A DNA stretch of 64,000 nucleotides, taken from Aerosticca soli (GTDB lineage Bacteria; Pseudomonadota; Gammaproteobacteria; Xanthomonadales; Rhodanobacteraceae). Below are positions 30,204-63,978 of this stretch, piece by piece. A model generated the notes under the pieces. That model had not been told where the DNA came from. It did no database searches and saw only the letters and a program-made list of their open reading frames with translations. The stretch covers positions 209,001 through 273,000 of the forward strand of contig NZ_AP018560.1 in assembly GCF_003967035.1 (NCBI RefSeq). Reading direction: 5' to 3'. How positions within the stretch are numbered: position 1 is the stretch's first letter; each line of letters starts with the position of its first letter. The position numbers and the translations under genes were made by a program.

Positions 30204-30219
30204 GGACGTCTAGACGTCC
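30204..30219 (+). promoter_or_regulatory. MetJ operator: two tandem met boxes
   Basis: GGACGTCT followed directly by AGACGTCC, each one mismatch from the met-box consensus AGACGTCT. Tandem 8-bp boxes are the MetJ binding unit. It lies 160 bp before the metJ start and about 95 bp before the best metJ -35, so it may act on a further upstream promoter. The stretch 29989-30378 otherwise contains the gcvH hairpin and the metJ promoter, and no gene. Confidence 0.85.
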
Positions 30220-30315
30220 TGTGTGGAAGTCTCCCCGGGGCGCCTTGAGTCCATCCGTGCAGCCGCCTTTGAGGCCTAAGGTGGCGCGCGTGGACGATTT
30301 TTTTACCGCAATCAA

Positions 30316-30344
30316 TTGACAGTGGAAATATTCGGGAATAGCTT
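30316..30344 (+). promoter_or_regulatory. Putative metJ promoter
   Basis: A perfect TTGACA -35 at 30316-30321 and a weak TAGCTT -10 at 30339-30344 with 17 bp spacing, in a locally AT-rich stretch, 35 bp before the metJ ATG. Confidence 0.5.
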
Positions 30345-30378
30345 TCGCTTCGAATCGCGGGGACTAAAAAGAAACGTC

Positions 30379-30888
30379 ATGTCGGCAAACAAATACATCG
30401 AGCCGTATGTCGAGCATGGGGAAAAAGCCAGTGCAGTACGCAAGATCACGGTGTCGATTCCCTTGCACGTGCTGCGTCTGCTTTCCGACGAACGCACGCG
30501 TCGTCAGGTGAATAATCTCAGGCATGCCACCAACAGCGATCTCTTGGTCGAGGCATTCCTGCATGCTTTTACTGGGCAACCACTGCCAACCGATGAGGAG
30601 CTGAGACGAACCATGGCCACTGCCAAGAAAGCCACTGTCAAGAAACCCGCGGCCAAAAAGGTCGCCAAGAAAACCACCGTCAAGAAGGCTGCCGTCAAGA
30701 AGCCGGTAGCCAAGAAACCGGCCGCCAAGAAGGCCGCCGTGAAGAAGACCGCCACCCCCGCCAAGAAGGCTGCCGCCAAGAAGCCGGCCGCCGCCAAGAA
30801 AAGCGTGGTCAAGAAGGTCGCCGTAAAGAAACTCCCCGCCAAGAAGACGGCGGCCAAGGCGGGCAAATCCGCCGCCGCGGCGAAATAA
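30379..30888 (+). CDS. metJ: MetJ methionine repressor with histone-H1-like Lys/Ala C-terminal tail
   Basis: A 169-residue composite. Residues 1-78 are Met[21 protein letters not shown], including the ribbon that reads met boxes, then [20 protein letters not shown] and [13 protein letters not shown], nearly identical to the E. coli repressor core with its SAM-binding helices. The C-terminal part of E. coli MetJ is missing. Instead residues 79-169 are a Lys/Ala/Val/Pro tail with repeated AAKK, VKK and PAKK units, like AlgP or histone H1. The ATG at MSANKYIE is used because upstream in-frame sequence overlaps the promoter. An internal ATG at 30613 with GAGGAG 12 bp upstream could yield the tail alone. 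It is preceded by met boxes and followed by a terminator, so autoregulation is likely. Confidence 0.93.
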
Positions 30889-61461: not shown

Positions 61462-61485
61462 GGACGTCCGGACGTATAGACGTCT
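61462..61485 (+). promoter_or_regulatory. MetJ operator: three tandem met boxes
   Basis: GGACGTCC, GGACGTAT and AGACGTCT lie head to tail without spacing; the third is a perfect met-box consensus. They end one base before the -35 of the metX promoter. MetJ dimers bind such arrays cooperatively with SAM, so repression of metX-metB in methionine sufficiency is expected. The MetJ gene is at 30379. Confidence 0.9.
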
Positions 61486-61522: not shown

Positions 61523-61635
61523 CACTCATCGAGACCGGCGGAGGGATGGGCCCTTTGAAGCCGGGGCAACCTGCGGGGCGACCCGCAACGGTGCCAATTC
61601 CTGCGGGGCGCCCGGCGCCACCGAGAGATGGGGTG
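61523..61635 (+). promoter_or_regulatory. SAM-I (S-box) riboswitch upstream of metX-metB
   Basis: The conserved core is plain: GGCGGAGGGATGGGCCC, then TTTGAAGCCGGGGCAACC, then a P3 hairpin TGCGGG-GCGA-CCCGCA, then GGTGCCAATTCCTGC. A closing P1 helix pairs CTCATC (61525-61530) with GATGGG (61627-61632). All are hallmarks of the SAM-I aptamer. SAM binding should lower expression. No T-tract terminator follows; the downstream hairpin at 61678-61716 that covers the ribosome site suggests translational control. Confidence 0.93.
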
Positions 61636-61677
61636 TCATCTGCACCGGCCGATGCCGCGTGCGGAGCGGCGACCTTC

Positions 61678-61716
61678 CTCCGGCGAGTCCTGCAGGGCGA
61701 TGTCCTTGAGCCGGAG
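61678..61716 (+). promoter_or_regulatory. Possible riboswitch expression platform sequestering the metX ribosome site
   Basis: CTCCGGC (61678-61684) is complementary to GCCGGAG (61710-61716). The latter contains the GGAG ribosome-binding site placed 7 bp before the metX ATG. A SAM-dependent switch could expose or hide it. Confidence 0.55.
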
Positions 61717-61723
61717 CCTTCCC

Positions 61724-62758
61724 ATGACTGGTCAGCCGCAAGCCGTGCATACCCGCCTTCCCGTCCCATCCCGTATCGATGCCGCCAGCGGCGAGGCGCG
61801 CCGCGCCCAGCTCACCGTGCAGCGCAGCGCGCGCCGGGTCACGCTGCATCCCAAGTACGGCCGCGGGCCGGTCGCGGTGGACGTGCGCTACCTGTGGACC
61901 GGCGCGCCGGATGCGCCGACCGTGGTGGTGCAGGGCGGCATCTCGGCCGATCGCGACGTGGTGACCAGCCCCGCCGCCGCCACGCCCGGCTGGTGGCAGG
62001 GCCTGGTCGGTGAGGGGCGCGCGATCGACCTTCGCCAGTGGCGCGTGCTCGCCATCGACTGGCTGGAAAGCGCCGAGCTCGACGCACCCTCGGTGTCCAG
62101 CGAGGACCAGGCCGATGCCATCGCCGCGCTGCTCGGCGAGCTCGGCATCCATCGCGTGCAGGCTTTCGTCGGCGCCTCCTATGGCGCGATGGTGGCGCTG
62201 GCCTTCGCCGCGCGGCATCCGCAGGCGGTGGCGCGTCTGGTGCTGCTGGCCGGCGCGCATCGTCCGCATCCGCTGGCCACCGCGCAGCGCAGCGTGCAGC
62301 GCAACATCGTGCGGCTGGGGCAGGCGTCCGGACGGGTCGAGGAAGCGCTGGCACTGGCGCGGCAGCTGGCCATGACCACCTACCGCGGCAGCGAGGAGTT
62401 CGCCCGCCGGTTCGATGCCCCGCCCGTGCAGGTCGACGGCCGTTTCCGTTTTCCAGTGGAGGACTACCTGGAACAGGCCGGCCGGCGTTTCGTCCAGCGT
62501 TTCGATGCCGGGCGTTTTCTCGCCCTCTCCGAATCCATCGACCTGCATGAGGTCCGCCCCGAGGCGGTGACGGTGCCGGCCACGCTGATCGGCTTCGCCT
62601 CGGATCGGCTGGTGCCGCTGACCGACCTGTGCGAGCTGCAGCGCCGTCTGGGCGGCGGCGGCACGCTGGCGGTGCTGGATTCGCCTTACGGCCACGACGC
62701 CTTCCTCAAGGAAACCGAGCAACTCGCGCCCTTGCTGCGCGATGCGTTGTGCGCGTGA
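61724..62758 (+). CDS. metX: Homoserine O-acyltransferase, MetX-like
   Basis: A 344-residue alpha/beta-hydrolase-fold acyltransferase: [14 protein letters not shown], a nucleophile elbow [13 protein letters not shown] with Ser152, a later Asp ([10 protein letters not shown]), and the terminal His in [11 protein letters not shown]. MetX enzymes acylate homoserine for methionine synthesis; Xanthomonadales members are described as succinyl-CoA users, which cannot be read by eye here. The start is decided by GGAG 7 bp upstream. It sits in a MetJ- and SAM-riboswitch-controlled leader and is followed by metB after 32 bp. Confidence 0.88.
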
Positions 62759-62790: not shown

Positions 62791-63978
62791 ATGAGCGACC
62801 AGGCCCCCTGTACCCGCGCGGTGCGCGCCGGTATCGACACCGATACCCAGCACGGCGCGGTGGTGCCGCCGCTGCACCTGTCGACCAACTACAGCTTCGC
62901 CGGCCTGGGCGGCAAGCGCGCCTATGATTATTCGCGCAGCGGCAACCCCACCCGCGACCTGCTCGCCGAGGCACTGGCCGAGCTGGAACAGGGCGCCGGC
63001 GCGGTGATCACCGCCAGCGGCATGGCCGCGGTCGCGCTGACGCTGGAGCTGCTGCCGGCCGGCGCCGTGGTGCTGGCCGCGCACGACTGCTACGGCGGGA
63101 CCTGGCGGCTGTTCGACGCCTGGGCCAGGAAGGGGCGCCTTGCGGTGCATTTCGTCGATCTCACCGATCCGGCCGCGCTGGCCGCCGGGCTGGCGCTGCG
63201 GCCTGCGCTGGTGTGGGTAGAGACGCCGTCCAACCCGCTGCTGCGCATCACCGACATCCGTCACGTGGTGCAGGCCGCGCAGGCCGTCGGCGCCTGGGTG
63301 GCAGTGGACAACACCTTCCTCTCGCCGGCCTTGCAGCAGCCGCTCGCCCTGGGCGCGGACCTGGTGGTGCATTCGACCACCAAGTACATCAACGGTCACA
63401 GCGACGTGGTCGGCGGCGCGGTGGTGGCGCGCACGCCGGAACTGGCCGAGCGGCTCAAATGGTGGGCCAATTGCAACGGCCTGACCGGCGCGCCATTCGA
63501 CAGCTACCTCACCCTGCGCGGCCTGCGCACGCTCGGCGTGCGGCTGCGCCAGCACCAGCACAATGCCGAAAGGATCGCCACGCTGCTCGATGCCCATCCG
63601 GCCGTGCGCCGGGTGTACTACCCGGGCCTGTCCAGTCACCCGCAACACGCGCTCGCCGCACGCCAGCAGCAGGGTTTCGGCGCCATGCTCAGTTTCGAGC
63701 TCGACGGTGGCGAGGCGGAAGTGGGCGCTTTCGTCGACGGACTGGGTTGCTTCACGCTGGCCGAATCGCTCGGCGGCGTGGAAAGCCTGGTCGCCCATCC
63801 GGCCAGCATGACCCATGCCGCGATGGCGCCGGAGGCACGCCGCGCCGCCGGCATCGGCGACACCCTGCTGCGGCTGTCGGTCGGCATCGAGGACGGCGAC
63901 GACCTGGTGCGCGACATCGGCGCCGCGCTCGAACGCGTGCTCGCCGCGCAGACCGCCAAACGCCGGGCCCGCGCATGA
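62791..63978 (+). CDS. metB: Cystathionine gamma-synthase (O-acylhomoserine sulfhydrylase-type PLP enzyme)
   Basis: A 395-residue PLP enzyme: GIDTDTQHGAVVPPLHLSTN, YDYSRSGNPTRDLLAEALAE, AHDCYGGTWRLFD, VDNTFLSPALQQPLALGADL and the Schiff-base lysine in HSTTKYINGHSDVVGG. LAESLGGVESLVAHPASMTH ends the family core. Downstream of metX in the same operon, it most likely condenses O-acylhomoserine with cysteine to cystathionine. It is a clear paralogue of the enzyme at 4197, but only this one has methionine-regulon control signals. A likely further gene starts inside its last codons. Confidence 0.92.
   Translation: MSDQAPCTRAVRAGIDTDTQHGAVVPPLHLSTNYSFAGLGGKRAYDYSRSGNPTRDLLAEALAELEQGAGAVITASGMAAVALTLELLPAGAVVLAAHDCYGGTWRLFDAWARKGRLAVHFVDLTDPAALAAGLALRPALVWVETPSNPLLRITDIRHVVQAAQAVGAWVAVDNTFLSPALQQPLALGADLVVHSTTKYINGHSDVVGGAVVARTPELAERLKWWANCNGLTGAPFDSYLTLRGLRTLGVRLRQHQHNAERIATLLDAHPAVRRVYYPGLSSHPQHALAARQQQGFGAMLSFELDGGEAEVGAFVDGLGCFTLAESLGGVESLVAHPASMTHAAMAPEARRAAGIGDTLLRLSVGIEDGDDLVRDIGAALERVLAAQTAKRRARA

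Follow-up and report, generated by a model that had tools for sequence, protein, structure and literature searches.

The methionine repressor MetJ of the Rhodanobacteraceae carries, where its usual C-terminal part would stand, a long lysine/alanine-rich tail of histone H1-like composition, and at the joint between core and tail the DNA letters themselves are held fixed, beyond the protein sequence. On balance, it seems probable that an ancestor within the family acquired an in-frame fusion of MetJ with an H1-like Lys/Ala protein and that the gene makes two products, the tailed repressor and, from an internal start, the free tail. The fusion is secure as far as it can be read from the sequence, and the two-product reading is the best of several explanations; the internal start is the more important part of the finding, more so than the fusion alone.

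A MetJ core joined to a lysine/alanine tail

In the window, i.e. the whole stretch of 64,000 nucleotides of Aerosticca soli DNA that was analysed, metJ is a single frame on the forward strand, like all the features described below, at 30379..30888, with a predicted product of 169 aa and 18.07 kDa. An earlier note on this DNA had described an almost complete MetJ core in the first 78 residues and about 90 residues of Lys/Ala repeats replacing the C-terminal part, and both descriptions are borne out. The core (residues 1-78, 30379..30612) lies above the cut-offs of two curated profiles, with 130.5 bits against 25 for PF01340 and 134.3 bits against 110 for NF003622, and its residues 4-77 align to the E. 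coli MetJ chains (PDB 1cma and 1mj2) with an E-value of 5.4e-34. Besides these core residues, the two proteins have in common the KxTxS beta-strand motif, the residues E39 and R42, and met boxes at metJ and metX. They differ in that the PF01340 match ends at model position 88 of 97 and that the canonical C-terminal part of MetJ, whose full length is about 105 aa, is missing from the window protein, the Lys/Ala tail standing instead. By the curated models, the window protein thus stays a MetJ, as a variant. Its tail (residues 79-169, 30613..30888, also a candidate for a separate H1-like frame that would begin at the internal ATG) counts 91 residues, M79 to K169, among them 33 Lys and 30 Ala and neither Arg nor Asp/Glu, with a predicted mass of 9.14 kDa and a pI of 11.5. 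The genome (2.87 Mb, one contig) holds this one MetJ match only. The gene is preceded by gcvT and gcvH and followed by a TonB-family gene, and in the family a gcvH match is found upstream in 116 of 128 loci and a TonB-family match downstream in 109.

The family of the window was identified as the Rhodanobacteraceae, to which Dyella belongs, and 131 of its metJ loci were read, the metJ genes of four Dyella loci and one Rhodanobacter locus being identical to members of the family set. Left out were one locus with a TGA inside the MetJ core (L205, genome G759), which represents either a broken gene or a sequencing error, and L070 and L244, a single gene split over two contig ends. The resulting set comprises 128 complete, distinct metJ genes that encode 125 distinct proteins. 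The Lys/Ala tail is present in all 128, a count that, like the others given here, is inflated by kinship among the genomes, the control columns sharing the same tree. Counted from the end of the core motif, the tails measure 43 to 312 aa (median 104), their share of Lys plus Ala is 55-82% and their net charge lies between +20 and +104. A stop between core and tail in related genomes, named beforehand as speaking against the fusion, was looked for and found in 0 of the 128 complete genes. Chance or an annotation artefact as the origin of the fusion was also considered and rejected, the tail being present in 128/128 complete family genes. Despite the varying tail length, a short C-terminal motif resembling AKVVKATK occurs within the last 30 residues of 91 of the 128 tails.

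Outside the family, the tail is absent from 20 MetJs of three other Xanthomonadales families, which are 79-97 aa long, and from 73 MetJs of other gammaproteobacteria, where the canonical C-terminus is found. The earlier note had pointed to the Xanthomonadales in general, which is too broad: in this order, no family other than that of the window was seen to have the tail. At the same time, the finding is wider than the single gene of the earlier note, being a family trait. As to MetJ itself, one draw of 61 relatives gave a match in 37/37 family genomes (26 genera) and in 2 of 24 genomes from other families of the order, the remaining 22 of these 24 having no match; draws over the order and over the class gave MetJ in 145/398 genomes, 125 of them from the window's family, and in 5/369 genomes, respectively.

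Met boxes and the repressor role

MetJ is a textbook metabolite-sensing repressor, and it is very probable that the tailed protein serves the family as its functional methionine repressor, as indicated by met boxes (up to 3 mismatches) before metX in all 20 close family orthologues examined (L263-L282) and in none of the nine loci of other families (L283-L291), in which the best sites have 6 to 8 mismatches. A more distant metX homologue of the family (L292, 47% identity) has a 3-mismatch site as well. This sample consists of the 30 metX-like loci that were fetched; G004 and G008, family genomes whose best match was likewise distant, were left out.

In the window, two double met boxes are found with 2 mismatches each to AGACGTCTAGACGTCT, compared to a shuffle mean of 0.09. 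One of them, GGACGTCTAGACGTCC, stands upstream of metJ (30204..30219), and the other, GGACGTATAGACGTCT, before metX-metB (61470..61485). The candidate target metX (61628..62758, its exact start being uncertain) reaches 387.6 bits with NF006449 (cut-off 296), and the following metB-like cystathionine gamma-synthase gene (62791..63978, with a start inferred from the frame) reaches 596.3 bits with TIGR02080 (cut-off 504.55). When the whole genome was scanned at up to 3 mismatches, 22 sites were obtained versus 6 in the control. Upstream of metJ, a met-box-like site within 3 mismatches is present in 36 of the 128 family genes, at a distance of 165-194 nt from the start, and 72 genes have one if 4 mismatches are allowed, compared to 0 and 1 of 128 in shuffles and 0 and 2 of 127 in a control region; in the other 56 genes, no site within 4 mismatches was found in the 400 nt upstream. 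An alignment of the 128 loci also reveals a conserved non-coding block with a TTGACA (30309..30352), a candidate metJ promoter, in which a sigma-70 scan gave no site above threshold. This block directly precedes metJ, some 100 nt downstream of the met boxes.

Three further sites of the window's genome deserve mention in their own right. At L031 (G000:C1:2560433-2560456), the genome has its single perfect double met box, with a partial third box behind it; the flanking frames seem to converge on this site, which has no clear position ahead of a methionine gene. In addition, two 2-mismatch sites (L033 and L036) are found just before frames that resemble purH and aspartate kinase by eye.

The core residues that repression would call upon are kept to different degrees. 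The Lys, Thr and Ser of the beta-strand KxTxS motif are kept in 128/128 family genes, Lys23 and Thr25 being DNA-contact residues of this strand. Glu39 and Arg42, identified in a simulation study as crucial partners of SAM (PMC2775130), are present in the window protein and kept together in 82 of the 128 genes. In 45 others (L041, L043 and L045 among them), Glu39 is replaced by Leu and Arg42 by His, Tyr, Glu or Ser (E. coli numbering), so that the SAM response of these MetJs may differ; members of this group, e.g. G003, retain good met boxes at metX.

In the literature, Leyn et al. listed MetJ in 62 genomes of six groups, and Table 1 of this survey of methionine regulons gives none for its 4 Xanthomonadales genomes (PMC4239095); in the text of Augustus and Spicer, the words Xanthomonas, Xylella and Stenotrophomonas do not appear (PMC3228920). 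For one Rhodanobacter strain, an increase of MetJ (described as a "putative repressor") and a decrease of four methionine enzymes are mentioned in another report (PMC12146267). Searches of open-licence papers listed no title or abstract that described a MetJ-H1 fusion.

The core-tail joint and the candidate internal start

A stretch that runs from the last core codons across the junction to the internal start (30565..30618) is frozen at the nucleotide level, as seen from synonymous entropy, the codon table and the sequences themselves. Over the last 13 core codons and two junction codons of the 128 family genes, synonymous entropy amounts to 0.19 of expectation, with a lowest window of 0.13, compared to 0.75 in the rest of the core and to a lowest window of 0.71 in the control gene gcvH (96 of the same loci). 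The same codons reach 0.91 in 73 metJ genes of other gammaproteobacteria and 0.92 in 20 from other Xanthomonadales families. In the same line, third-position pairwise identity is 0.934 inside the frozen stretch versus 0.537 outside, and GC3 is 0.33 inside versus 0.68 outside. The consensus reads GCTTTTACTGGGCAACCACTGCCAACYGAYGAGGAGCTRAGACG, usually followed by 1 or 4 bases and then by ATGGC. Among 99 relatives drawn, this pattern was present in 58 of the 59 family genomes, the extra matches being a 3-mismatch one in a single genome of another family and a second such match in one family genome, and the reversed control pattern gave one match.

Within this stretch lies the feature to which the earlier note had drawn attention, an internal ATG (30613..30615) behind a GAGGAG (30595..30600, 12 nt before the ATG), both of which are present. 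The ATG is kept in 127 of the 128 family genes, and Met beyond the first eight tail residues accounts for only 12 of 12694 residues. The two Glu codons of the GAGGAG are GAG in 127/127 and 128/128 cases, versus 211 of 442 Glu codons elsewhere in the core. The duplex energy of this internal Shine-Dalgarno sequence with the 16S end averages -10.5 kcal/mol over the 128 genes, compared to -5.7 at the main metJ start. Control positions average -3.4, and 0.2% of them attain the median of the internal site. Taken together, the frozen synonymous codons, the strong Shine-Dalgarno sequence and the near-universal ATG support internal initiation as a predicted event, and a conserved inner Shine-Dalgarno sequence and start codon under nucleotide-level constraint, one of the marks of an in-frame dual-product gene, are found here. 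What counts against it is the spacing between GAGGAG and ATG, which is long, with 12 nt in 119 genes and 9 nt in 8. In the single exception, L028, the internal start is GTG and the frozen sequence is lost as well, and this joint loss indicates that the two are tied to each other. On the other hand, the Ala that follows the internal Met is kept as often as the Met itself (127/128), so that constraint at the protein level may contribute.

Separate H1-like genes of three family genomes begin with MATTRK or MAMTRK and have an AGGAG upstream with a 9-nt spacer. The leader of one separate H1-like gene (L259, genome G013), AGGAGTGAAGACGC-ATGGC, resembles the inner metJ start, AGGAGCTGAGACGAACC-ATGGC, which reflects either a shared origin or chance.

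The frozen stretch exceeds a ribosome-binding site by about 30 nt on its upstream side, and internal initiation alone is therefore insufficient to explain it. This excess may involve antisense coding, a promoter of unusual type, or a site for a regulator or a small RNA, and one could go further and suppose that only the fusion protein is made, the frozen stretch being an internal promoter or the site of a DNA- or RNA-binding regulator or of a small RNA, with the nearness of the ATG incidental. This would suit the upstream excess, as well as the single occurrence of the pattern in the window's own genome at up to 3 mismatches and an antisense frame that is open across the element in 127/128 family genes, which would allow for antisense transcription or coding. 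Nevertheless, a sigma-70 scan inside the element returned no promoter, Rfam over the metJ gene itself returned no family at E-values up to 1 (two sub-threshold microRNA matches lie elsewhere), and the RNA folds of the element are not better than those of shuffles, a small hairpin being broken in some lineages, as judged by eye. Moreover, ATG and GAGGAG belong to the frozen set and disappear along with it in L028. A fusion-only gene with an incidental ATG is an unlikely account.

Two other ideas about the element were set aside. An overlapping sense gene was rejected, since the other two sense frames are open only about 16-17 codons upstream (median) and meet a stop in or shortly after the element, at one fixed place in 122/128 and 117/128 genes. 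Resemblances to hammerhead and kink-turn motifs were dropped as judgements by eye only.

The tail, comparable systems and what the fusion may mean

The tail is H1-like in composition, and its scores keep it below membership of the curated families: NF038053 (hist_H1_lk_Burk) gives 30.9 or 42.9 bits (cut-off 80), aligning from model position 1 at the internal ATG, and PF07382 (HC2) gives 25.4 bits (cut-off 40). Contrary to the proteins of these two families, which it resembles in composition, it is encoded inside metJ. H1-like matches occur in 26 of the 28 genomes searched, none above cut-off, so that the search for a compensating stand-alone H1 gene in G006, in which the element is lost, was uninformative. 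One long frame of the window's own genome (L247, G000:C1:187697-187981) ends in a Lys/Ala tail and resembles topoisomerase I by eye, and many of the relatives searched likewise have frames of about 820-1070 aa that contain an H1-like stretch.

A close architectural parallel is offered by AlgP (AlgR3) and PhaF of Pseudomonas, which likewise combine a folded N-terminal part with a disordered H1-like tail rich in Lys, Ala and Pro (PMC9239181). The metJ-H1 gene is distinct in that the partner domain is a metabolite-responsive repressor, that the repeats are AAKK-like with a KK every 4-5 residues, and that a conserved in-frame start lies at the joint. It might be asked whether the tail, either within the fusion or as a free protein, has polyphosphate or RNA as its main ligand, in the manner of an AlgP-like granule or nucleoid protein, rather than acting at met operators. 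In the same study, AlgP, which has a KPAA tail, is associated with polyphosphate granules, whose spacing needs its C-terminus, but AlgP tail fragments and KPAA peptides bind DNA too (PMC9239181). This reading, improbable in our view, borrows its evidence from AlgP, and it is from the same protein, together with the charge of the tail, that a strengthening of DNA binding by the tail is suggested.

The frozen codons could also be seen as a slow-codon cluster, at which ribosomes would pause at the domain joint to allow folding, with no internal start. Several of the kept codons are rare in the remaining core (AGA 4%, GCT 6%, GGG 10% and ACT 14%), and conserved rare-codon clusters have been described (PMC5438181). 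However, it is the identity of the codons that is kept rather than their rarity, with ACT in 128/128, AGA in 122/122 and GGG in 127/128 cases; the common codons GAG and CTG are kept likewise, and all 8 codons that stand in for the usual CCA, in genes with another residue at the Pro of GQPLP, retain its final A. Pausing is a very improbable explanation. The least probable view takes the tail for low-complexity sequence that drifts without having a function, for although the length range of 43 to 312 aa and the further K/A-rich frames in the own genome and most of the 28 compared would fit it, the tail is lost in none of the 128 genes, its net charge is always at least +20 and the frozen DNA is left unexplained.

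The two-product reading can be set beside infB, cheA, mcrB and clpB, known in-frame dual-product bacterial genes with internal starts. There too, one frame contains a nested start, which in metJ would yield an N-terminally shortened product. Unlike in these genes, no part of the repressor domain would recur in the putative short metJ product, and in 26 genera about 50 nt of leader ahead of the inner start are frozen. The earlier note had presented a tailed repressor and a separately released tail as alternatives. Its internal start finds support in the sequence; the exclusivity does not, since nothing in the sequence blocks full-length synthesis and the met boxes at metX show the repressor in use, so that both products together fit better than one or the other. 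The compaction or bridging of DNA and the higher affinity that the note envisaged for the tailed protein are hypothetical effects.

According to the two-product reading, the full-length MetJ-H1 would bind met boxes via its ribbon-helix-helix core, while the disordered tail, with a charge of +33 per subunit, would bind any nearby nucleic acid and thereby raise occupancy and slow release at the met boxes. The GAGGAG near the core end would also recruit ribosomes, with initiation at the ATG at 30613 giving rise to a free H1-like protein of 91 residues. The simplest history would be the fusion of a short MetJ, as present in other families of the order, with an H1-like gene whose original start was retained. 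In this context, a link between methionine status and H1 dose is plausible, given the met-box-like sites upstream of metJ in 72/128 genes. A bolder proposal, which we advance tentatively and regard as possible rather than probable, is that the frozen element in the repressor gene drives translation of the free H1-like tail, so that methionine would set the dose of a chromatin-like protein, and that its upstream leader would be of an undescribed regulatory kind.

For the biology of the group, a family within the Xanthomonadales appears to use a MetJ whose C-terminal part has been swapped for an H1-like polycation, and MetJ-H1 offers a natural test of the effect of a non-specific tail on a well-understood repressor. 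If the inner start works, the frozen leader would constitute a short and well-bounded target for finding the mechanism, and a single gene would link the sensing of a metabolite with how much of a nucleoid-type protein is made.
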